The notes under the pieces were generated by a model. The model was given only the letters and a program-made list of their open reading frames with translations, ran no database searches and was not told where the DNA came from. 64,000 nucleotides of DNA from Planctomycetota bacterium (GTDB taxonomy: Bacteria > Planctomycetota > Planctomycetia > Planctomycetales > Planctomycetaceae): contig VGZH01000003.1 of the NCBI GenBank assembly GCA_016872645.1, forward strand, positions 1 to 64,000. Direction: 5' to 3'. The position numbers were made by a program, and so were the translations under genes. The first letter of the stretch is position 1, and every line of letters begins with the position of its first letter. This document shows positions 137 to 11,426 of the stretch, piece after piece.

Positions 137-1426
137 ATGACAAACAAATTTCTGATTGCGGCGGCGGGGATGTTTTTTTTCGCCGGACACGCGGGTTTCG
201 CCGCCGACATCGTGGATTGGCGTTCATGGCGCGGGCCACTGGGGAATGGAAGCGTTGAACGGGGAAGTTATCCCGTATCTTTCGGCGCTGAAAAATATCT
301 CTGGCGGACTCCGCTGCCGGGCAAAGGGTGTTCGACGCCGATCTTGCTCAGTGGGATGATCTATTTGACTTCCCCCGCCGACGGAAACGACGCGCTGCTA
401 TGCTATGACTTGAACGGACGCGAGAAATGGCGAACGGCCTTTGGGAAAGAGAACGCGGGCAAGCACCGTAACGGTTCGGGAAGCAATGCGTCGCCGGTCA
501 CCGATGGCAAAGCGGTCTTTGTCTTCTTCAAAAGTGGCACCTTCGCGGCGGTGGATCTCAACGGAAAAGTTCGCTGGAAGACCGATCTCGTAGAACGATT
601 TGGCAAGGATACTTTGTTTTGGGATCACGGCACCTCGCCCGTGTTGACTGAGAATTACGTCATCATGGTGCGGATGCATCAAGGAGAATCGTGGTTGGCG
701 GCATTCGACAAAGAGACAGGGGCGATGGCTTGGAAGGTTGCACGAAATTACAAAACGCCAACGGAGTGCGATCACGGCTACTCAACGCCGCTGGTGATTC
801 AGCATCAGGGCCAGGAGTCAATCTTGGTTTGGGGAGCTGAGCATCTCACGATGCACGACTCGACCGACGGGAAGGTCACCTGGTCATGCGGCGACTTCAA
901 TCCGGATGCCAATAAGTTGTGGCCGGCAATCGCGACGCCGGTCATCGTTGGAGACATCGCCGTGATCGCTTACGGCCGGAACGATCGCGGCATCCCCCGA
1001 CTGCACGGAATTCGATTGACCGGATCCGGGGACGTCACGCAGACCAATCATGTCTGGCGTCGCGACGACGTCGGCACGTTCGTCCCGACACCTGTCGCCT
1101 ACAAAGGCCAAGTGATCCTGGTCGGCGATCACGGCGGGGTTGCCAGCATCGCCCCTGCGACCGGTAAGACGATTTGGTCGGGCGCGTTTCCAAAGAGCCG
1201 AGCCAACTACTACGCCTCGCCGCTCGTCGCTGGAGACAAGCTTTTTGCTCCGCGGGAAGATGGCGCCGTGTTTGTCGCCAGCATCGCCAACGACAAGTTC
1301 ATTTTGCTCTCCGAAAACAACATGGACGAGTCCGTCATCGGCTCGCCGGTGCCAGCTTCGAATCGACTTCTCATTCGCGGCGAGAAACATCTGTTCTGCA
1401 TTGCCGCGGAATCGTCGTCGCCGTGA
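137..1426 (+). CDS. Secreted PQQ-like beta-propeller protein
   Basis: The 429-residue product opens with a signal peptide (charged MTNK, hydrophobic core, likely cleavage after GFAA) and then the WRGPLGNG motif near residue 31, which commonly starts planctomycete PQQ-like propellers. Blade motifs with Trp and Gly recur, for example ETGAMAW near residue 192 and ATGKTIW near 337, as expected of an eight-bladed PQQ/BamB-like propeller in the periplasm or on the surface. No dehydrogenase catalytic motif is evident, so a binding or scaffolding role is as likely as an enzymatic one. It converges on the Gfo/Idh gene with only 14 bases between the stops. Fold class is confident; substrate is unknown. 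Confidence 0.85.
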   Translation: MTNKFLIAAAGMFFFAGHAGFAADIVDWRSWRGPLGNGSVERGSYPVSFGAEKYLWRTPLPGKGCSTPILLSGMIYLTSPADGNDALLCYDLNGREKWRTAFGKENAGKHRNGSGSNASPVTDGKAVFVFFKSGTFAAVDLNGKVRWKTDLVERFGKDTLFWDHGTSPVLTENYVIMVRMHQGESWLAAFDKETGAMAWKVARNYKTPTECDHGYSTPLVIQHQGQESILVWGAEHLTMHDSTDGKVTWSCGDFNPDANKLWPAIATPVIVGDIAVIAYGRNDRGIPRLHGIRLTGSGDVTQTNHVWRRDDVGTFVPTPVAYKGQVILVGDHGGVASIAPATGKTIWSGAFPKSRANYYASPLVAGDKLFAPREDGAVFVASIANDKFILLSENNMDESVIGSPVPASNRLLIRGEKHLFCIAAESSSP

Positions 1427-1440
1427 TTGCCATCCCATGC

Positions 1441-2811
1441 CTACATCTGGATTTCGAATCCTTTGCGGTTTTCGCGGCCGAGGAATGAGTTTGCCTGGGC
1501 ATCTCCGATGATTTCGCGTTTGACCGGGTCCCATTTGACTTCGCGATTCAAACGCATGGCGATGTTCGAAAGATGACAAATCTCAAGCATCCGGTTATGC
1601 GACCAGACATCGGAGATCGGCTGCTTGCGTGCTTTCATCCCCTCGATGAAGTTGGCGGTGTGATTCGCACTGACCTTGCCGCCGTAGACTGTTTCGATCG
1701 CGCCGTCCGGCAGCGGTTTGTCTTTCAGGTCTTCGACTGGCTTGCCCGTAAGTTTGCCGCGATTGACGAAGAAGCGACCCTCCGTCCCCTCGAACAGAAT
1801 GCCGTTGTCCCCTTCGCTGGTGATGGTCAACTCCACGTCGTTGGGCATGTCGACGCGGATGGTGAATTGAGTTGCCGCGTTGTACTGATCGGCAACCGTG
1901 GGGTGGCCGTCTTTGTACTCAATCGGCAATTTGTACTCGACCGGAGTGACCTTGCTCGGCCCGGTCTCAGTGGCACCGAGCGCCCAGCAGGCGATGTCCA
2001 CATGATGGGCTCCCCAGTCGGTCAGCTTGCCGCCGGAGTACTCGTGCCAGTTGCGGAACGAATAGTGACAGTTGCTGTAGAGCGGCACGCCGCCTCCATA
2101 ACCTTTTCGCAATTCTGGCAAAGCTCGATACGAGACCTTGGGGGCTGGGCCGAGCCAGAAATCCCAATCAATGTGCTCCGGGACAGCCACTTCCGGAATG
2201 ACAGGTGATGACTCCATTCGATCGATGCCGCACGTCACCTTCTTCACCGTGCCAATGCGGCCGTCTCGGACGAGCGCGATCGCCTTCAGGAAACGGAGAT
2301 CACTTTCGGTTCGCTGCATCGTTCCGACCTGAAAGACTCGGCCGGTCTGCTTGACAATTTTTTCGATCAGCTTCCCTTCCGCGATGGTCAGCGTGAGCGG
2401 CTTCTCGCAATACACGTCTTTGCCCGCAAGCATCGCTTCGACGGCGATCTTCGTGTGCCAATGATCGGGCGTGGCAATCATCACCGCATCGATATCTTTC
2501 CGATCGAGGATCTTGCGGTAGTCCTTGTAGGCATCAGGCTTCTTCTTTTGAGCCTTTTCCACCTTGCTGACGTTCTCCGCCAGGACGTTGGCATCGACGT
2601 CCGCCAACGCGGCGAAATCAGCGAACCCGAAGGACTTGCTGGTAATCGCCCAGCCTTGATTGCGCAATCCGATGGTCGCAAAGACCGGACGCTCGCTCGT
2701 CGACTGATAACCCACAGCACGGTTCGGCGACGGCAGCAGAATGCTTGCGGCTCCTGCTGCGGCGATACCGTGAAGGAACTGACGACGCGAGGCCTGGTGA
2801 GAAGAGAGCAT
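1441..2811 (-). CDS. Tat-exported Gfo/Idh/MocA family oxidoreductase
   Basis: The 456-residue protein begins with a twin-arginine leader (SRRQFLHG near residue 8 followed by an Ala-rich core), so it should be folded with its nicotinamide cofactor and exported by Tat. The N-terminal Rossmann half carries the family EKP motif (DVYCEKPLT near residue 136), where Lys is the usual catalytic residue. The C-terminal half has the typical GGGVPLYSNCHYSFRNW region and a DWGAHHVDIACWALG stretch. Such proteins act on sugars or inositols, but the substrate cannot be read here. It is collinear with, and 273 bases downstream of, the sugar ABC operon, so it may act on the same sugar. Confidence 0.9.
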   Translation of the reverse strand: MLSSHQASRRQFLHGIAAAGAASILLPSPNRAVGYQSTSERPVFATIGLRNQGWAITSKSFGFADFAALADVDANVLAENVSKVEKAQKKKPDAYKDYRKILDRKDIDAVMIATPDHWHTKIAVEAMLAGKDVYCEKPLTLTIAEGKLIEKIVKQTGRVFQVGTMQRTESDLRFLKAIALVRDGRIGTVKKVTCGIDRMESSPVIPEVAVPEHIDWDFWLGPAPKVSYRALPELRKGYGGGVPLYSNCHYSFRNWHEYSGGKLTDWGAHHVDIACWALGATETGPSKVTPVEYKLPIEYKDGHPTVADQYNAATQFTIRVDMPNDVELTITSEGDNGILFEGTEGRFFVNRGKLTGKPVEDLKDKPLPDGAIETVYGGKVSANHTANFIEGMKARKQPISDVWSHNRMLEICHLSNIAMRLNREVKWDPVKREIIGDAQANSFLGRENRKGFEIQM

Positions 2812-2850
2812 TTGTTGAACCCCATGTGTTGAGAATTAATACGAGCGTTT

Positions 2851-2884
2851 GCCAGCGGACATTCCAAAAAAGGAGCCCGCTGGC
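2851..2884. other. Perfect 8-bp inverted repeat upstream of the Gfo/Idh gene
   Basis: GCCAGCGG at 2851-2858 pairs with CCGCTGGC at 2877-2884 around an 18-base loop. It lies 40 bases upstream of the Gfo/Idh start and about 200 bases after the permease stop. There is no U-tract after the stem on the minus strand, so it is not a textbook terminator; a leader hairpin or operator is equally possible. The rest of the 273-base gap shows nothing recognisable. Confidence 0.4.
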
Positions 2885-3084
2885 CGATTGACAGACAGTG
2901 AACAATTCTGCGTTGCTGACGGAAACGGCTTGTCTCACCGTTGCTCGATTTACGATATCGGAACTCGCCAGTCACGTGAACTCACTGGTCCCGCATGGCT
3001 TGCGCGGTTCACCGGCGGATGATGATTCGGCAGCAACACGAGCCAGGCGACACAACTGAACCTTCGCAAGAAACCGATTCCCAG

Positions 3085-4476
3085 CTACCCGGAAGCGCGG
3101 TCGTTCGTGCCGCGATTCAACGCATCCGCGGGACCCTTCCGGGAATCATTTCCTCCGCCGGACACATTCAGAGAATCGAGCAGCACTGCTCCAAGAATGA
3201 CTCCTCCGAGCACGACTTTCTGCGTGTAGCTTTCGACGTTCGTCAGATTCATACCGTTTTGAATCACGGCGATCGTGAAGGCTCCGATCAGCGTGCCGAA
3301 CATTTTGCCTTCGCCGCCGCTGAGGCTCGTGCCGCCAACCACGACCGCCGCGATGACATACAACTCGTACATGTTGCCGTAAGTCGCCGAGCCGCTCTTG
3401 AGTTGCGAGGCCATGATCACTCCGCCCAGTCCCGCCAGCAGGGCGCTCGCGATGTACGCGAACATCAACACGCGCTGCACCGGAACGCCGGAGAGTCGCG
3501 CCGCCTCACGGTTGCCGCCGACCGCGTACAAATGCCGGCCGAGCCGCATCCGCGACATCAACACATGCGCGGCTCCGTAAAGGATCAGCATCAACAGTAC
3601 GGCGTTCGGGATCCGCGCAAAACCTTCGCCTCTGCCGAGCCACACGAACGAATCGGGAAGCTGATAGATTGACTGACCGGCCGCGAGGAGGTACGCCAAC
3701 CCGCTTCCCACCAGCATCATTGCCAGCGTCACAATGAAGGGAGGGATGCCGAACACGGTGATCATTCCGCCGGAAAACGCACCGATCAGTCCGCAAATCA
3801 GCACGGCCGCGCTGCCAGCCAAAGTCATGCCGAGCGCGGAGGCTTGTTCGGCTCCCGCGTAATCGCGGATGAACCGCGCGGCCAGCACCGCCGACAGGGC
3901 AATCAAGCTGCCGACCGAAAGGTCGATCCCGCCGGTGATGATCACCATCGTCATCCCGATCGCGATGATCGCGATTACTGCGATCTGATTGGCGATATTG
4001 ACCAGATTCTCCGACTTCAAAAAGTTCGGCCACTTCTCGGTTCGTGGTTGCACCAACTGCGGATCACCAAGCGTCGGGAACTCGGCTTTCAAATCCGCAA
4101 AGACCAGCCATGCGGCCGTTGTGCGCGTGCCAGCGATCACGTCCAGCGACTGGCCCTCCGACACGATTTTCTGAAGCGCCGCGCGAGCGTCCCTCGGTTC
4201 TCCTTTCACCACCGCCAACAACTTCGCCCCGCTGGCCGACAAGGCAGCTTCGAGCTTGTTCGCAAACAGCGTTTCATCCGCCTGATCGCGAGCCGCGATC
4301 AACACTCGCGGAGCCTTGCCGAAGTTCGCAATGAGCGCCGCTGCCACTTGTCTCGCTGCCGCTTCCCCGGTCGGAGATTGCTCGCTGTAGGTCGCAATGC
4401 TGAAGAATGCGCACAGCAAAGCCAGCACAAAGATCATGCCGTAGTCGGTCAACACTCGTGACAGGTTGCGAGTCAT
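3085..4476 (-). CDS. Sugar ABC transporter permease (RbsC family) with extra extracytoplasmic domain
   Basis: The 463-residue protein is longer than usual RbsC-type permeases (about 320-350). From about residue 155 it matches the family: a hydrophobic segment, GGIDLSVGS, several membrane helices and the cytoplasmic loop GGNREAARLSGVP that contacts the ATPase. The extra length lies between the first helix (residues 13-32) and residue 150: a soluble alpha/beta-looking region with VLIAARDQADETLFANK and LDVIAGTRTTAAW that resembles one lobe of a LacI-type periplasmic binding protein. It ends the operon binding protein, AroE-like, ATPase, permease, 87 bases after the ATPase stop. Transport role is confident; the sugar is unknown. 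Confidence 0.9.
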   Translation of the reverse strand: MTRNLSRVLTDYGMIFVLALLCAFFSIATYSEQSPTGEAAARQVAAALIANFGKAPRVLIAARDQADETLFANKLEAALSASGAKLLAVVKGEPRDARAALQKIVSEGQSLDVIAGTRTTAAWLVFADLKAEFPTLGDPQLVQPRTEKWPNFLKSENLVNIANQIAVIAIIAIGMTMVIITGGIDLSVGSLIALSAVLAARFIRDYAGAEQASALGMTLAGSAAVLICGLIGAFSGGMITVFGIPPFIVTLAMMLVGSGLAYLLAAGQSIYQLPDSFVWLGRGEGFARIPNAVLLMLILYGAAHVLMSRMRLGRHLYAVGGNREAARLSGVPVQRVLMFAYIASALLAGLGGVIMASQLKSGSATYGNMYELYVIAAVVVGGTSLSGGEGKMFGTLIGAFTIAVIQNGMNLTNVESYTQKVVLGGVILGAVLLDSLNVSGGGNDSRKGPADALNRGTNDRASG

Positions 4477-4489
4477 GAGAATTCTGTGG

Positions 4490-4551
4490 CCAGGTTCGCC
4501 AGAACCTGGAAAACGGCGACAAACGACAAACCCACGTTCTGGCGAACGTGG
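4490..4551. repeat. Two copies of a dispersed GTTCTGGCGAAC hairpin repeat, inverted
   Basis: Two perfect 8-bp stems lie back to back between ATPase and permease: CCAGGTTC/GAACCTGG (4490-4497, 4502-4509, loop GCCA) and CCACGTTC/GAACGTGG (4532-4539, 4544-4551, loop TGGC). The second is followed by GGCTACG, and the first is the same core in the opposite orientation. A third copy with the same GGCTACG tail lies at 36612-36631. A stable intergenic hairpin inside an operon can set the relative level of the downstream permease; that is inference. Confidence 0.65.
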
Positions 4552-4563
4552 CTACGAGACGCT

Positions 4564-6063
4564 TCACGCGATCGCGAGTTTCATAATCTGTTCCTGCGTC
4601 GCATTGCGAGCGTCAGGGATCTCGCCGGTCACGCGGCCTTCGTGCAAGACGAGGATCCGGTCGGCCATTCCCAACACCTCTGGTAACTCAGAACTGATCA
4701 TGAGGATCGCCTTTCCCTGCGCGGCCAGTTCGTTCATCAACAGATAGATCTCGTACTTCGCGCCGACGTCGATGCCGCGCGTCGGCTCGTCGAAGATCAG
4801 AACGTCGCAATTGCGAGCCAGCCATTTCGCCAGCACGACCTTTTGCTGATTCCCGCCCGACAAAGTCCCCGCTCGTTGTTCACTGCTGGAAGCTTTGATC
4901 CGCAGCGTTTCGACATACCGCGTGTATTCGTCTCGTTCACGGCGACGTTGCACGAAGCCCATGCGAGTCAGCCAATCCAAGTTCGGCAATCCAAAGTTTT
5001 CACGCACCGAATGGCCGAGCACGAGTCCTTGCAGCTTGCGATCCTCGGTCAGCAATCCGATGCCGGCGGCAATCGCATCGCGCGGCGAGCGAATCGCCAG
5101 CAAACGTCCGTCAAGCCGGATCTCTCCCGCTTCGCGCGGATCAGCCCCGAAAATCAGCCGCACGGTTTCCGTGCGACCGGCTCCGACTAATCCGGTCAAA
5201 GCCACAATCTCGCCGCGCTTCACCGAGATTGACACCTCACGCACGGCGCGGCCACGCCGCAAGCCGGTGACTTCCAAGCGTGGCGGACCGATCGTGATGG
5301 CACGCTTCGGAAACTCATCGCTCAACTCGCGGCCGACCATCAGTTCGATCAGCTCTTGCCGGGTGACTTGGGCAATCGGCCGCTCGCCAACATTCATGCC
5401 GTCGCGAAGCACCGTCACTCGATCAGCGATCGTGAAGATTTCATCCAGTCGATGACTGATGTAGACGACGCCGATCCCTTGCCGCTTCAGCTCCTCGATG
5501 ATCGCGAACAACCGGCTGACCTCGTGCGACGTGAGCGCGGCGCTCGGTTCGTCCATAACAATGATGCGGGCTTGAAACGCGAGCGCCTTGGCGATCTCGA
5601 CGAGTTGCTGCTGCGCCGTCGTCAGACGCCGGCACGGAGCATCGAGATCGACTTCGACTCCGAGACGCTGAAACAATTCGGTCGCTTGTCGCCGTTCCTG
5701 GGCCTGCGCGACAAAACCTGCGCGAGTCGGCTCTTGTCCGAGAAAGATGTTCTCACAGGCCGTCAAACCGGGAACGAGATTGAATTCTTGATAGATGACG
5801 GCCACGCCAGCCTGGCGTGAGTCCTGCGGCGACGCAAAGTGCTGCGCGACACCATCGATCTCAATCACACCCGAATCGGCTCGGAAAGCTCCGCCGAGCA
5901 CTTTCATTAACGTGCTCTTGCCGGCTCCGTTTTCACCCAGCAACGCCAGAACTTCGCCAGCCATCAGCGACACGTTCACACCACGCAGCGCCTGCACTCC
6001 GGGAAACGACTTCACGATACCGTGCATTTTCAACAGCGGTGCGGAAGCAGTCATCATCGTCAT
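4564..6063 (-). CDS. Sugar ABC transporter ATP-binding protein (RbsA family, tandem ATPase)
   Basis: The 499-residue product is a fused pair of ABC ATPase domains, the form used by ribose/galactose/inositol-type importers. The first domain has Walker A GENGAGKST and the Q-loop and signature LTTAQQQLVEIAKAL followed by MDEPSAALT. The second has the usual degenerate Walker A GLVGAGRTET, a full LSGGNQQKV signature and FDEPTRGIDVG. I start it at the ATG of MTMMTASAPLL, because the longer reading adds 37 residues with no family similarity. It sits 112 bases after the AroE-like gene and 87 before the permease. It powers uptake on the cytoplasmic face of the membrane. Confidence 0.95.
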   Translation of the reverse strand: MTMMTASAPLLKMHGIVKSFPGVQALRGVNVSLMAGEVLALLGENGAGKSTLMKVLGGAFRADSGVIEIDGVAQHFASPQDSRQAGVAVIYQEFNLVPGLTACENIFLGQEPTRAGFVAQAQERRQATELFQRLGVEVDLDAPCRRLTTAQQQLVEIAKALAFQARIIVMDEPSAALTSHEVSRLFAIIEELKRQGIGVVYISHRLDEIFTIADRVTVLRDGMNVGERPIAQVTRQELIELMVGRELSDEFPKRAITIGPPRLEVTGLRRGRAVREVSISVKRGEIVALTGLVGAGRTETVRLIFGADPREAGEIRLDGRLLAIRSPRDAIAAGIGLLTEDRKLQGLVLGHSVRENFGLPNLDWLTRMGFVQRRRERDEYTRYVETLRIKASSSEQRAGTLSGGNQQKVVLAKWLARNCDVLIFDEPTRGIDVGAKYEIYLLMNELAAQGKAILMISSELPEVLGMADRILVLHEGRVTGEIPDARNATQEQIMKLAIA

Positions 6064-6175
6064 GCCAAGTCCTCTGTGTCCCGTCGTGCCTCTGTGGAAT
6101 CCTCGGCCACGAACTGCTCTCCTTTGCTGAGTGAGTGCGGACACCACCGAGATATGACCGAGCGCAGAGATCACT

Positions 6176-7030
6176 TCATAATCCGAGCGCCCGTTCCAAC
6201 GCTCGCCGCATCACCGCCGCATCGGGCTCGATGCCGGTCCAATACTGCACGCCGACAATCCCTTGATTCACCAGCATCCCCAATCCATCGAGCGCGATGC
6301 AGCCACGCTCGGCTGCGTCCCGAATCAACCGCGTGTGCGGCGGATTGCCAATCACATCCGCGACCACCATCCCCGGCTTCAACGAGTTGATATCCAAGTT
6401 CAGCCGAGCCTCCGCGTCGTAAAGTCCGATCGATGTCGCGTTGATCACAACGTCCGTTCCGGCGGGAATTGCATAATCGCCATTCCACACAGCCAACTCG
6501 GCATTGAGCTGCAGCTTGCTGCGCAGCAGTTCGACCAATTCGGCACCGCGCGATTTGGAGCGATTCACCACGATGATCTGCCGAATTCCTGCCAGCCCCA
6601 ATTCGACAGCAATCGCTCTTGCCGCACCGCCGGCTCCGAACATCACCACCGATTTTCCTCGCGGATCAGTGGCCGACGTCAAAGATTTAAGGAAACCTTT
6701 GCCATCGGTATTCTCACCGATCAATTGGTCGCCGCGACGGACGACGCAGTTGACGGCTCCCATCACGGCGGCCGATTCCCCAAGCCCATCAAGATGCGAG
6801 ATGACCGTCACCTTGTGCGGCAGACTGCAATTGAATCCGCGAAAGCCCATCGCGCGAGCACCTCGCACGGCCGTTCCCAACTCTTCGGGAGTCACCTCCA
6901 TGTTGATGTACCGCCAGTGCAATCCGTGATGAGCAAACGCCGCTTCCATCATCGCCACCGTCGGATTCCCCGCCGCTCCCTGCGACATCGAGCCAACCAG
7001 CTCAGGCAAGAAGTTCTGTGAATCGCTCAT
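6176..7030 (-). CDS. Shikimate dehydrogenase-like (AroE family) oxidoreductase in a sugar-transport operon
   Basis: The 284-residue protein has the AroE fold signature: NCSLPHK with the catalytic Lys near residue 70, GENTDGKGF with the catalytic Asp, and a C-terminal NADP-binding MFGAGGAARAIAVEL followed by VVNRSKSRG. The N-terminal substrate loop, usually a GxPIxHSxSPxxHN motif, instead reads GSMSQGAAGNPTVAMMEAAF, so the Ser-x-Ser pair that grips the shikimate carboxylate is not preserved in its normal context. Lying between the binding protein and ATPase of a sugar importer, it more likely oxidises an imported polyol, cyclitol or quinate-like compound than supplies aromatic amino acids. The start MSDSQNF was chosen because upstream codons show no similarity. 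Confidence 0.85.
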   Translation of the reverse strand: MSDSQNFLPELVGSMSQGAAGNPTVAMMEAAFAHHGLHWRYINMEVTPEELGTAVRGARAMGFRGFNCSLPHKVTVISHLDGLGESAAVMGAVNCVVRRGDQLIGENTDGKGFLKSLTSATDPRGKSVVMFGAGGAARAIAVELGLAGIRQIIVVNRSKSRGAELVELLRSKLQLNAELAVWNGDYAIPAGTDVVINATSIGLYDAEARLNLDINSLKPGMVVADVIGNPPHTRLIRDAAERGCIALDGLGMLVNQGIVGVQYWTGIEPDAAVMRRALERALGL

Positions 7031-7184
7031 GAGTTCTATCTCTGTATAAAAGGAAAAACCGAGACAACGAACGACTGCACAGATCGCGTCGACTTCTCTT
7101 CGCGCCCTTGGCGACCTTCTGTCCAAAATGATTCGCGTTCAAACCGAAGATTGCCAAGGACACCAAGAGTGAGAAGCCAACGGA

Positions 7185-8177
7185 TCACTTCAGATCCGGG
7201 TCCGCTTCGGCGTCTGCTTTGCGATACAGGCTCGTCGGGATCAGCATCTGTGGCGGGAGTTCTTCGCCCTTTGAGTGCTTCACGATGGCGGCGACGATTT
7301 CGACTCCCATCTTGTCGGGAAACTGAATTGGGTCCGCGTAGATCTTGCCCTCTTTGATCGCCTGCTTTCCTTCCGGCTGGCCGTCGAAACCGACGATCAA
7401 GACTTGATCCGCTTTGCCGGCCTTCTCCAGAGCGGCTCGCGCACCCAGCGCGGCGGGATCGTTGATTGCGAAGATGCCTCGCAGATCGGCGTGAGCTTGG
7501 AGCGAATCCTCGGCGGCCTTGTAGCCCTGATCCTTCGCTCCGCCGCTTTCGAGTTCGGTGACCAGCTCAATCTTCGAGGCAGCTGACTGGTTGTGTGCAT
7601 CGATGACCTCACGAAAACCTTTCACGCGGAGCAAGCAAGATTCCGCCTGCTTGAAGTGCAGGATCGCAACCTTGCCTCCCGCTTCGCCGAGTGCCTCGAT
7701 CATCGCGTGCCCCGCTTCTTTGCCGCCGCCGTAATTGTCGGTCGCGACTTGGGTGGCGATCTTCACGCCCGGTTCGTTGCAGGGGATATCGACGGTGAAG
7801 ACCGGAATCCCTGCTTCGTTCGCTTCTTGGATGACCGGAATGATCGACTTGGAATCGCACGGGCTGAGTACAATCGCGCTCACCTTCTTAACGATGAAGT
7901 CTTTGATCTGATTGCTCTGCTTGGCGACATCTTTATCGCCGCTGACCACGATCGTTTCGTAACCGAGTTTCTTACCTTCGGCCGTGATGTTGTCGCCGAT
8001 GACCTTGAAGAACGGGTTGTCGAGCGTCAGCAGCGAGACGCCGATCGTTCCCTTCGATGTCACGGGAGCGACGACGGTCGGCAACGCGCCCGACGGTTTG
8101 ACGGTATCGTCCGACTTGCCGCATCCCAACAAGCAGAGCAACGTGCTGGTAAACAGACACCAAAATGTGTGTTTCAT
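7185..8177 (-). CDS. Sugar-binding lipoprotein of an ABC importer (RbsB/LacI-type)
   Basis: The product, 330 residues from MKHTFW, has a lipoprotein signal ending at the lipobox LLGC near residue 17. The mature part matches periplasmic sugar-binding proteins of the LacI/RbsB class: GTIGVSLLTLDNPFFKVI at the start, NQIKDFIVKKVSAIVLSPCDS, then IPVFTVDIPC and a C-terminal VLIVGFDGQPEGKQAI hinge region. It delivers a sugar to the permease and ATPase encoded downstream and is the first gene of that operon. An inverted repeat at 8241-8305 lies just upstream. The ligand cannot be named; ribose, inositol or an autoinducer-like sugar are all possible for this class. Confidence 0.92.
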   Translation of the reverse strand: MKHTFWCLFTSTLLCLLGCGKSDDTVKPSGALPTVVAPVTSKGTIGVSLLTLDNPFFKVIGDNITAEGKKLGYETIVVSGDKDVAKQSNQIKDFIVKKVSAIVLSPCDSKSIIPVIQEANEAGIPVFTVDIPCNEPGVKIATQVATDNYGGGKEAGHAMIEALGEAGGKVAILHFKQAESCLLRVKGFREVIDAHNQSAASKIELVTELESGGAKDQGYKAAEDSLQAHADLRGIFAINDPAALGARAALEKAGKADQVLIVGFDGQPEGKQAIKEGKIYADPIQFPDKMGVEIVAAIVKHSKGEELPPQMLIPTSLYRKADAEADPDLK

Positions 8178-8240
8178 GAGTTGATCTCGTTTGATTTTTC
8201 GAGGTTTCGGGGCTGCAACAATGATGCACTTGGCAGGTAC

Positions 8241-8305
8241 AAAATCGGGGTAACAAATGCGTGCTCGCGCGGAAATTGGCGGTCTCATTTTTTACCCCCG
8301 ATTTT
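8241..8305. promoter_or_regulatory. Long inverted repeat upstream of the sugar ABC operon (possible operator or terminator)
   Basis: AAAATCGGGGTAA (8241-8253) and TTACCCCCGATTTT (8292-8305) are inverted copies differing by one extra C, separated by 38 bases. They lie between the stop of the 8343-9578 gene and the start of the binding-protein gene. They could be a two-site operator for a dimeric repressor of the sugar operon, or the stem of a weak terminator. No regulator gene is adjacent. Confidence 0.4.
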
Positions 8306-8342
8306 TTGCCAGCTCGTTTGACTAAGACAATCATCCCCTGAC

Positions 8343-9578
8343 TTATAGCTTGCCTGTTTTCAGGAAGTCGTGGCGCACCGGCGCAGTCACGCGCTGGCCG
8401 TTCGTCGAGACGAACGTGACCTGCCCCGTCGCGAATTCGAGCGTCTTGACCATCTCAAAGCCGTCGGGAATCTTGACTGCGCCCTGGATGTAATTCACTG
8501 TCGTCGGCTGCGTAGCCTTCAGTTCGATCGTGGTAGCGATCCCTTCTTTGCTCAAAATGTTCTCGCGCATCGACGCCGCCAGTCCGTCGGCAAAGTGTGC
8601 GGTCACGTCTTCGAGGCCCAGACAATTGTTGCGTCCGTTCCAGGGATGTCCGTGTCGTCCGTGGTTCTCAATCCAGAAGACCGTGCTGCTCAACACGGCT
8701 GGGTCTTTCAGGGAGAACCACAGATATCCCGCTTCGGTAAACGTGGCGGTCATCCAGGCGGGGCCGTTCGTTTTCTCCCAAGGTTCGTTGACGAGCTGAA
8801 TCAAATCGGCGTGCCCCTGCCGAGCCGGCAACTTAGTGAGATCCGCATCCGGCTCCCCTTTCCAGGCGACCGGAACTTTGGTCAGTGTTGTCCACTTCGC
8901 GTTGGGTAACAGCGATTGATACTCCCGCTGCTTCGGATCGCTGAACGTGCCGGGATACGTCATGCCGAATCGAAACGGACTGGCCGCGAGCCGCACGGTT
9001 CCCTCTTTGTCCGGCATCGCGAGCGTCGCGTGATGTCCCAGCGGCACGCGACCGGCAAAGCCGTCGATCGTGTGCCGTGAATAGATCACGTTCTGAGTAT
9101 CGATCAGCGAGAGTTCCTTGGTCACTCGGCCGCGACGCACTTGCGTGTCGATCGACAGCGTGAGCGTCGTCACGTCCCCCGACTTCTTCGTGCTGACATG
9201 CTTCCATTTCGCTCCGGCGATCTCGCCATGTGGCGGATGTTTCTCACCGGAGACTTCATCCGAGTTGCCTCCAAATGGCATGCAGAAAAAGTCGCCTCTC
9301 AGCGGAACTAAAACAGGAACGGGCATCGCTGTCGGTTTCTCATCCTGCCACGGGCTGACATAGTATGGTCGTACCGGCTTGTCCGAGTCGCGGAAGAACG
9401 TCACCGGAGCCATGTGCCCGCCGAATTCCGTAACGGCCAACTCCACTTGTTTCGTGAAGACGACAAAGCATGGCTGTTGGTGAATCGTGCGAACCTTTGT
9501 GTCGTCTGCGAAGCCATCGGTCAGAGCGAACACGACGAACAAACTCAAAGCCCGGCAATTGGTCTGAAGCAAATTCAT
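8343..9578 (-). CDS. Secreted protein of unknown function, possible galactose-mutarotase-like fold
   Basis: I start this 411-residue product at the ATG preceded by GAGGATCAATTCC, a good ribosome site; an upstream TTG would read through that site. A signal peptide (MNLLQTNCRALSLFVVFALTDGF) precedes a mature, beta-rich protein with features seen in aldose-1-epimerase-like folds: ELAVTEFGGHMAPVTFF, an FCMPFGGN stretch, then WFSLKDPAVLSSTVFWIENHGRHG. I cannot name the family with certainty. Its position just upstream of the sugar importer, same strand, fits anomer handling or sugar binding at the surface, but this is inference from context. Confidence 0.7.
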   Translation of the reverse strand: MNLLQTNCRALSLFVVFALTDGFADDTKVRTIHQQPCFVVFTKQVELAVTEFGGHMAPVTFFRDSDKPVRPYYVSPWQDEKPTAMPVPVLVPLRGDFFCMPFGGNSDEVSGEKHPPHGEIAGAKWKHVSTKKSGDVTTLTLSIDTQVRRGRVTKELSLIDTQNVIYSRHTIDGFAGRVPLGHHATLAMPDKEGTVRLAASPFRFGMTYPGTFSDPKQREYQSLLPNAKWTTLTKVPVAWKGEPDADLTKLPARQGHADLIQLVNEPWEKTNGPAWMTATFTEAGYLWFSLKDPAVLSSTVFWIENHGRHGHPWNGRNNCLGLEDVTAHFADGLAASMRENILSKEGIATTIELKATQPTTVNYIQGAVKIPDGFEMVKTLEFATGQVTFVSTNGQRVTAPVRHDFLKTGKL

Positions 9579-9617
9579 GGAATTGATCCTCAAAAAGATG
9601 TGGGAACTTTAGCAACC

Positions 9618-11426
9618 TCACCGCGGAGGCGAAGTCCGTGACAGGGTTTGAACCTCCGGTTCGGTCAACGCGCGACGGTAGAGCCGCACTTCACGAATCT
9701 GCCCCGTGAAAAAGTCTTGCTCACCGGAGCCGATCCGGAGCGGCTGATTGGTTGTGAGGTCATAGTCCTCGGACGAGAATGGCGTGGACTTTGCCACCAT
9801 TCGACCAGAGACATAGAGCCGGAGTTCTCCGCCAAGACGCTGAGCGACGAGATGCTTCCAGCCGGGGCCGAGGTCTTCGTCGTACGAAAGGCACTCGCCG
9901 GCCTTCAGGGAGTAGACGCTGCCACGTACGCCGGCGGGAGCGTCCTGCATGGCGCTGGTGCAACTGCCGATGCTCGCGAAGAGCAATCCTTGATAAACGG
10001 TCAGGCTGGTGACTCGCGTCCAATTGTTAATCTCGCCTCGTACAGGGTCGGTTGGCGGGCCGGGTTCCCAGCCGGGGGGCGAGAAGAATTTGTGCAACGA
10101 CGTCCAACCTCGCTCATCGTCGTACCGCGAAACTTCGCCGCGCGGAATCGCTCCGGCGTAGAGCTTGCCGTTGTAGACGGTCAGCGCGTTGATCTCCGTG
10201 CCATCTCCCAGGCGACCACGATCGATCCATCGTTCGCCACCTTGATGCTCGACGACCCGCGCTTCCGGCCACATGCCGGCCAGCAGCTTGCCGCGAAAGA
10301 CCTCCAGCGAATGCACTTGCAGAAACGGCTTCTGATCGAGCGGTGTGTGGCCGATCGGCGTGCCGGTGAATTCCCACGTGCGTCCGTCGAAGGCGTAGAC
10401 GTTCGGGTAGCCGACATACAACTTGCCGTCGTGAACCGCCATCGCGTGGGGGTAACAGTTCTTCGGCGGATCAGCGGGCAAGCTGCCGGCGATGGACCAT
10501 TTCGTCCCACCCTCCCAGAAATAGACCCGATACGGCCGGCCGGTCCACTGCTTCTCGCCGGGCGGGGGCAAGCCGCGATCACCGCCGACGTACAGTTTTC
10601 CGCCATAGGTCGCCATGCAGTTGATCCGCAGCATCTCGCTGGGCTGACCGCAATCGGTCCACGTCGTTCCCCCTTCATAGCGATAGACCCGAGCGGGCTC
10701 GTACTCGCCGGAGAAGACGCGAGTCCAATCGTAGGTGGACGTCCCCGCGTACAAGTGCCCTTGATGGACGATAAGCCCCATCACGCCGGTCGTTTTTCGC
10801 GAACCGACACGTCCGCAGTCGATCCACTGCTGGCCGCCGGCATAGCGAAAGACATGACACCAGTCGGCTTCGTTCTGCGCGTCGATGTTGGCGGCATACA
10901 ATTGTCCGTTGAACACGGTCAGTGAATTGCTGACATAGTTGCTGGTCGGACTGGGGCGACCGCAATCCTGCCACTTGCCGAGCTTCGCGTTATCGATGCC
11001 GAAGTGAACGTGCCGGTCATCTCCCGAAGACTGATAGCCTCCGGAACTGGCTTTGAGGTTTAACGTCACACCTCGTCGAGCCTGCGGATCGTACCAGCTG
11101 AAAACATCCCCCAGCGTGTCATCGACGATCGGGTCGGTGTGGACCCAAGCGGAGATCGCGAAGTCCCCTTGTCCCAGTTGCAGCGACTTATGACTCGGGA
11201 CTTCGACGTAAGCGGAGCGTCCATCGAAGCGACCGGTCTGCAGATCGACACCGTGATTCACGCCATGATTGTTCCGCCCCGATGAGTCACGGCAGTCTCC
11301 TTGCAGTTTCCAATAGCCGACGAGGTCGCGTTGCAACTCGACTTCTCTCACCGCATCCGGCGGCGCGGCTGTCAGCAAGTGCTGAGCAATGAGCCAATAA
11401 CACACGACAACTCGAATCAGACTCAT
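9618..11426 (-). CDS. Secreted LamG/concanavalin-like protein with inserted seven-repeat beta-propeller
   Basis: The 602-residue protein has a signal peptide, then the first half of a LamG-type jelly roll (LVGYWKLQGDCRDSSGRNNHG near residue 35, then FAISAWVHTD). From about 150 to 500 come seven repeats of an L-x-V-x-x-GKLYAG motif (for example LTVFNGQLYAAN, MAVHDGKLYVGY, LTVYNGKLYAGA). The remaining LamG strands follow (LRLYVSGRMVAKS, then FFTGQIREVRLYRRAL near 580). The seven repeats predict a seven-bladed Kelch-like propeller set into a lectin-like domain. A glycan-binding or adhesion role at the cell surface is likely. It is 24 bases upstream of the start of the next minus-strand gene's 39-base gap, so co-transcription is plausible. 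Confidence 0.82.
   Translation of the reverse strand: MSLIRVVVCYWLIAQHLLTAAPPDAVREVELQRDLVGYWKLQGDCRDSSGRNNHGVNHGVDLQTGRFDGRSAYVEVPSHKSLQLGQGDFAISAWVHTDPIVDDTLGDVFSWYDPQARRGVTLNLKASSGGYQSSGDDRHVHFGIDNAKLGKWQDCGRPSPTSNYVSNSLTVFNGQLYAANIDAQNEADWCHVFRYAGGQQWIDCGRVGSRKTTGVMGLIVHQGHLYAGTSTYDWTRVFSGEYEPARVYRYEGGTTWTDCGQPSEMLRINCMATYGGKLYVGGDRGLPPPGEKQWTGRPYRVYFWEGGTKWSIAGSLPADPPKNCYPHAMAVHDGKLYVGYPNVYAFDGRTWEFTGTPIGHTPLDQKPFLQVHSLEVFRGKLLAGMWPEARVVEHQGGERWIDRGRLGDGTEINALTVYNGKLYAGAIPRGEVSRYDDERGWTSLHKFFSPPGWEPGPPTDPVRGEINNWTRVTSLTVYQGLLFASIGSCTSAMQDAPAGVRGSVYSLKAGECLSYDEDLGPGWKHLVAQRLGGELRLYVSGRMVAKSTPFSSEDYDLTTNQPLRIGSGEQDFFTGQIREVRLYRRALTEPEVQTLSRTSPPR

Follow-up and report, generated by a model that had tools for sequence, protein, structure and literature searches.

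Propellers that carry an inserted domain are known from sialidases. The Vibrio cholerae sialidase has a propeller into which a lectin-like domain is inserted (PMC2716378), and an IT-sialidase contains an insertion of another domain (PMC4747158). Lectin-like domains within propellers are already known in this sense, and a whole propeller within a LamG domain would be the reverse nesting. The protein described here differs in this way from the V. cholerae enzyme, a type 2 Asp-box propeller with the lectin-like part inside the propeller. We found no printed description of a propeller nested in LamG in a literature search that was thin on subscription journals, and the main text of PMC11131199 mentions neither LamG, laminin, nor propeller. 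The Asp-box pattern was not found in our protein or in its 217 homologues.

The protein is encoded in a 64,000-nucleotide stretch of a Planctomycetota genome, the whole of which we refer to as the window. A minus-strand open reading frame (ORF) at 9618..11426 translates into 602 residues with zero internal stops, and the entire frame is covered by full-length homologues. Residues 1 to 20 (11367..11426, minus strand) are hydrophobic on inspection and make a probable secretion signal; AlphaFold2 placed residues 2 to 18 in a helix at low to middling confidence. On the same strand follow the LamG N-half (residues 35 to 145, 10992..11324), the inserted seven-bladed propeller (residues 149 to 507, 9906..10982), and the LamG C-half (residues 510 to 590, 9657..9899). 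These limits are close to the segments at about 35 to 130 and 510 to 600 claimed in a preliminary description of this DNA.

The likeness to Laminin_G_3 (PF13385) lies in the strand order and in the signature strands FAISAWV, WKHLVAQR, LRLYVSG, PLRIG, and FTGQIREVRLY. Unlike the 13 aligned LamG stretches from the same genome, which match in one piece, the window protein is interrupted by about 360 residues. Compared with virginiamycin B lyase, RACK1 and other WD40 proteins, and Kelch proteins, the modelled propeller has the same ring, but its termini lie inside a second domain and are not free. Compared with the CE15 glucuronoyl and AXE1 esterases, a domain of that kind fronts the module in some relatives, whereas Pfam found no esterase domain in the window protein. 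The protein has seven repeats and a seven-bladed model, and its parts are obligately paired in a large family. The explanation that best fits the data overall, and one that we consider probable, is a secreted LamG domain interrupted by a complete propeller, with the two mutually nested, that acts as a glycan-binding module. Should this hold, the protein would be a clear natural example of two mutually nested beta folds, conserved across a bacterial class, with the propeller closed by strands from either end of the insert.

Seven repeats and the modelled propeller

The element G-x-[LM]-[YFL]-[AVG]-[AGS] starts at residues 174, 223, 276, 334, 379, 420, and 480. When the protein was shuffled 10,000 times, the element occurred 0.06 times on average and at most 3 times, compared with seven in the native sequence, so the seven repeats reported earlier between two LamG segments hold up on counting. 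Seven conserved tryptophans (152, 201, 256, 310, 351, 400, and 441) alternate with the G-x-L-Y elements, and the first, W152, precedes the first element at residue 174. Among the 217 homologues, the glycines of the repeats are kept at 91 to 100% and the tryptophans at 89 to 100%. Because the first tryptophan lies ahead of the first G-x-L-Y element, the sequence suggests that blade 7 is built from both ends of the insert, with its last strand supplied by the N-terminal end.

We modelled the protein with AlphaFold2 from 13 sequences, and pLDDT was mostly 70 to 95 across residues 150 to 510. The strands of the modelled propeller fall into six groups of four and a seventh group (residues 470 to 507) with three strands of at least three residues; the fourth strand of blade 7 is limited to the two residues 153 and 154. 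A propeller was also modelled for a relative (L014) in a second run with 12 sequences. All blades are read from the minus strand. Blade 1 comprises residues 164 to 206 (10809..10937), with DSSP strands at 170 to 206, and blades 2, 3, and 4 comprise residues 214 to 258 (10653..10787), 267 to 316 (10479..10628), and 328 to 353 (10368..10445); these four were delimited by DSSP and the repeat. Blade 5 (residues 370 to 405, 10212..10319), blade 6 (residues 411 to 446, 10089..10196), and strands A to C of blade 7 (residues 470 to 507, 9906..10019) were delimited by DSSP and conservation. We propose that strand D of blade 7 is formed by residues 150 to 157 (10956..10979), which contain W152, from the count and order of the tryptophans and from the co-variation of C155 with S506 (Z 6.0) between the entering and leaving strands of the insert. 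Blades 1 and 7 also co-vary across the ring closure in 216 homologues (S166-S485, Z 8.1; L169-V472, Z 5.8).

Residues 148 to 514 of the model superposed on the whole of virginiamycin B lyase (2z2o) with Z 28.6 and rmsd 2.7 over 289 residues in VIA-align, and RACK1 and other WD40 propellers scored just behind among the top matches. The two leading Foldseek matches of the modelled protein were Kelch-type proteins, and a profile of 35 homologues matched Kelch structures in the middle region (KLHL20, E 4.7e-9). Both Kelch families in Pfam scored below their cut-offs (PF01344, 11.6 against 20.1 bits; PF07646, 11.3 against 21.3 bits). A PDB search with the single sequence gave one match at E 0.48 and no convincing relative. 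The protein is Kelch-like, yet it falls outside Pfam Kelch membership. As modelled, the region has the seven blades and the closed ring of a seven-bladed beta-propeller, in agreement with the earlier proposal that the repeats close into one.

Conserved residues, fusion partners, and function

Four residues, Q370 and W386 in blade 5, E411 in blade 6, and R471 in blade 7, were present in 217/217 homologues, and a fifth, P428 in blade 6, was present in 216/217. By DSSP of the model, all five lie at strand-A starts and strand-B ends of blades 5 to 7. We infer that they form a putative pocket on the top face of these blades, opposite LamG. With LamG at the bottom side of blade 7, the two surfaces would be fixed relative to each other.

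The same residues bear on the main rival explanation, in which the propeller is itself a polysaccharide lyase or hydrolase and LamG is its binding module. Propeller enzymes usually bear their active site on the side of the D-A and B-C loops, and it is at the ends of these loops in blades 5 to 7 that the five residues, each in at least 216 of the 217 homologues, cluster. Virginiamycin B lyase is also the best structural match. However, a common fold proves no function, only one acid is among the conserved residues, and we recognized no known catalytic set among them. Other modules fused to this one already resemble catalytic ones. We therefore regard an enzymatic propeller as rather unlikely, though ahead of the other alternatives, and prefer a glycan-binding module.

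Of 18 long ORFs collected from the family, 11 were scanned for fused domains. An alpha/beta-hydrolase of the dienelactone, acetyl-xylan, and glucuronoyl-esterase group was N-terminal in 8 of 10 long members. The remaining two were a protein with a C-terminal GDPD domain (L163, G219:C7) and one with no other recognizable domain, and the eleventh long member likewise had none. For the one protein tested (L168), the front part matched structures of the OtCE15A glucuronoyl esterase at E of about 4e-8. Seven of the eight hydrolase fusions matched the family profile only from positions 23 to 46 of 522, which implies that the opening LamG strands of these fusions are absent or altered. In a sister family (see below), a GHL10 glycosyl-hydrolase-like domain follows the module in 2/9 scanned members (L338 and L357). 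Overall, the analysis supports a nested, conserved two-domain unit that mostly stands alone and sometimes occurs in proteins with domains of carbohydrate-active type.

Fusion partners of these kinds, carbohydrate-esterase-like, GHL10, and GDPD domains, also argue against a protein-protein adaptor or a structural protein of the envelope with no sugar ligand. Kelch and WD40 propellers, which mostly bind proteins, are among the nearest to ours by profile and by shape, and the neighboring genes vary among genomes; both points favor such a role. Weighing both sides, we find an adaptor or structural role improbable, more so than an enzymatic propeller.

We return to a glycan-binding module. Judged from sequence, the most probable function is that of a secreted module of this kind. 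Because the layout recurs as a conserved family, at times fused to carbohydrate-acting enzymes, we take it for a probable sugar-handling module with two faces and not for an oddity. The conserved residues and the fusions together also make the propeller a plausible second binding surface, as was first suggested. Our model is that the module is exported and would bind polysaccharide through LamG, through the propeller pocket, or through both, and that it may present or dock the polysaccharide for secreted esterases and glycosidases. A more speculative extension, which we offer as tentative, is that a mutually nested, rigid carbohydrate-active module is present in at least two planctomycete families (one with CE15-like and one with GHL10 fusions) and that the invariant Q-W-E-P-R pocket serves as a binding or catalytic site not described before, representing a CBM or CAZyme family that would be new. 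Glycan binding or cleavage by the conserved face would give planctomycetes, whose carbohydrate machinery is poorly charted, a further module. The fusion of this module to recognizable esterase-like and glycosidase-like domains makes a glycan role directly testable.

The neighbors of the window gene include ABC sugar transporter genes, a shikimate dehydrogenase gene, and a peptidase gene. Downstream on the same strand, positions 1441 to 9593 hold an ORF without any match in Pfam or NCBIfam, a ribose-type sugar-binding protein, a shikimate dehydrogenase, an ABC ATPase, a permease, and a GFO/IDH/MocA oxidoreductase, with the shikimate dehydrogenase sitting inside the transporter cluster. We considered a role in a sugar-uptake operon, as this co-oriented ABC cluster follows the window gene, but rejected it because the cluster is not shared at the homologue loci. 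At 12 such loci, genes of the ABC sugar-transport cluster were not found beside the homologues (the flanks at L004 and L007 measured less than 1.6 kb), and the single cluster match nearby was a distant ABC ATPase with 30% identity at L011.

Genes of the DUF1553 and DUF1501 types lay near 4/10 homologues examined; in the window, they sit on the opposite strand at a distance of about 4 kb from the gene. Such genes are abundant in planctomycetes, so we gave their nearness no weight. At one locus (L010, positions 202 to 7755), a WD40 protein, a PSCyt1/PSCyt2/PSD1 protein, a DUF1501 protein, and a family member follow in succession on one strand.

The two LamG segments and their probable nesting

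Laminin_G_3 was the sole Pfam family above its cut-off in the window protein (65.5 against 27.6 bits, E 8e-18), and it matched in two stretches. The N segment alone covered profile positions 1 to 33 with 14.7 bits, below the cut-off of 27.6, and the C segment alone covered positions 81 to 151 with 53 bits, above it. When the halves were joined without the insert, the profile matched from 1 to 151 in a single stretch at 66.5 bits. Joins made from five of five homologues each gave one stretch that covered at least positions 5 to 150, with 58 to 88 bits. When the halves were joined in the wrong order, the score was 64.3 bits, and the listed stretch covered only positions 81 to 151. The scores of the native protein (65.5), the true join (66.5), and the wrong-order join (64.3 bits) barely separate, and the better stretch in the native protein aligns residues 469 to 593 with profile positions 24 to 151, extending into blade 7. 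Since the gain from joining is small, we read the profile as evidence of complementary coverage and place the main weight on co-variation. The C segment also matched the structures 4qvs, 8sl1, and 5hon, which we take to be LamG-type domains, when the profile of 35 homologues was searched against structures.

Co-variation was calculated over 509 columns from 216 homologues, whose effective number was 140 at 80% identity, with mean-field direct coupling. The alignment had been reduced from 277 to 217 rows by removing those identical to or contained in others, with ORFs shorter than 350 codons and any match weaker than E 1e-100 excluded. One row with more than 25% gaps and all columns with more than 30% gaps were then dropped. 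At Z above 7, couplings numbered 4/5,886 pairs within the N segment, 9/10,032 between the N and C segments, 1/3,403 within the C segment, and 20/39,903 within the propeller, compared to 1/32,832 between the N segment and the propeller and 0/25,344 between the propeller and the C segment (together 1/58,176). Per 10,000 pairs, this corresponds to 9.0 for N-C, 6.8 for N-N, 2.9 for C-C, and 5.0 within the propeller, against 0.3 and 0.0 for the two cross-domain classes. The N-C class differed from these two with a Fisher p of 2.8e-7, a value computed on pairs that are not independent. The contrast was weaker at Z above 6 (15/10,032 against 17/58,176, p 1.5e-5). A smaller run on 158 sequences, drawn from 188 after identical rows were removed, pointed in the same direction with more noise (at Z above 7.5, N-C 13/10,260, N-propeller 8/34,418, and propeller-C 9/27,174).

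The top antiparallel diagonal of the entire matrix joins the N to the C segment (residues 34 to 39 with 580 to 585), and further N-C antiparallel diagonals were found at 92 to 97 with 576 to 581 and at 86 to 91 with 529 to 534. These are presumably the pairings expected of adjacent strands in a LamG sheet. High-ranking diagonals across the domains were present too, at 81 to 86 with 148 to 153, 97 to 102 with 271 to 276, and 186 to 191 with 588 to 593.

Structure prediction, which had been proposed as a check, answered in part. It built the seven-bladed propeller, but a closed jelly roll was built in neither AlphaFold2 run (13 and 12 sequences). In the first run, the N-half was below pLDDT 50 and block means in the C-half were 29 to 58; in the second, on the relative L014, both halves were nearly all below 50. 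Closure of the jelly roll consequently rests on the profile and on co-variation, from which we expect that the two halves would form one closed LamG jelly roll. That the N and C segments are instead two separate small beta domains flanking the propeller, with no nesting, would fit the failure of AlphaFold2 to join them with confidence, the two Pfam stretches in the native protein, and the little score gained by joining, but we do not favor it and think it very unlikely, because each segment covers a complementary part of one profile and N-C co-variation runs at about the within-domain rate, far above that of the cross-domain classes.

One LamG domain split by the propeller, as claimed at the outset, is thus well supported by profile and co-variation, and neither of the outcomes named beforehand as contrary to it, independent end domains or repeats that fail to close, turned up. 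On the evidence of its sequence, the protein is a split member of Laminin_G_3 with an insert at residues 149 to 507; we accept this membership because, in our view, the Pfam family is not defined by an uninterrupted chain.

In the family alignment, the break falls between the strand ending in ...RHVHFGID and the strand before W-x-H-[LV]-A. Set against the 13 LamG stretches that match in one piece in this genome, the break also falls before W-x-H, in a part of the alignment that is loose and rich in gaps. These 13 come from 18 LamG matches in the genome; the five omitted were the window protein, its paralogue, and three matches that were partial or weak.

In the arrangement that we propose, a Kelch-like propeller interrupts a LamG (concanavalin A-like) domain between neighboring strands near residues 145 and 511. 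The entering strand at 150 to 157 would pair with the strands of the leaving segment (470 to 507) in blade 7 and so close the propeller. If the usual strand order applies, strand D of blade 7 enters and strand C exits, both at the bottom face. From this entry and exit, LamG would sit where blade 7 otherwise has its C-D loop, and the propeller would occupy a hairpin of LamG. In this way, each domain would occupy a hairpin of the other, and LamG and the propeller would be held rigidly and not through a linker.

Distribution of the family and its sister family

We looked for the same domain order in other genomes and found it. With the single protein, matches at E of 1e-30 or lower were present in 102/297 Planctomycetia genomes, and with a profile, at E of 1e-40 or lower, in 150/397. 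The architecture had been called uncommon; the nesting behind that description is supported, yet the layout belongs to a conserved family found in about one-third of the Planctomycetia genomes searched. In the taxonomic family of the window, 116/170 genomes matched, compared to 31/95 in another family of the class. In a phylum-wide draw, 12/294 genomes matched at E of 1e-20 or lower, 11 of them from the same taxonomic family as the window and a single one (G420) from outside the class. G420 has six matching rows (among them L045, L052, L058, and L060) and a contamination estimate of 6%. Two records titled Verrucomicrobia and Akkermansia (L012 and L015) contain copies that share 77% identity with the window protein, and it seems likely that they are mislabelled or mixed bins. 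A search of viral contigs gave two weak matches at 26% identity.

The window's own genome encodes a full-length paralogue with 39% identity. It also has a 47-residue piece (L003/L207, contig C172) that is 87% identical to the C terminus, lies at a contig end, and contains one TAG; from its sequence, this is probably a second, cut-off close copy.

When profiles of the propeller (E of 1e-12 or lower) and of the N-LamG half (E of 1e-8 or lower) were searched separately in 79 genomes, they coincided at 35/35 places. At these thresholds, the 79 genomes contained no N-half without a propeller and no full-length propeller without an N-half. The propeller and the LamG N-half form an obligate unit. Seven additional propeller matches, partial and weak, had no N-half, and the five that we inspected led to a sister family.

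The sister family (L338 to L342 and L343 to L359) comprises propeller proteins with a LamG-like C-terminal segment. It was present in 16/148 genomes and missing from the genome of the window. In hhalign, its alignment matched positions 62 to 507 of the 530 in the family profile, with a probability of 99.1% and E 7e-19 across 415 columns. By part, the probability was 98.8% for the propeller and 95.4% for the C segment (E 1.8e-8), and the N segment had no significant match to the N segment of the family (3.3%). The layout may thus predate both families, with the sequence support for a split LamG in the sister family confined to the C side. The counterparts of Q370, E411, P428, and R471 were invariant in the five aligned sister members, and W386 was replaced by tyrosine.
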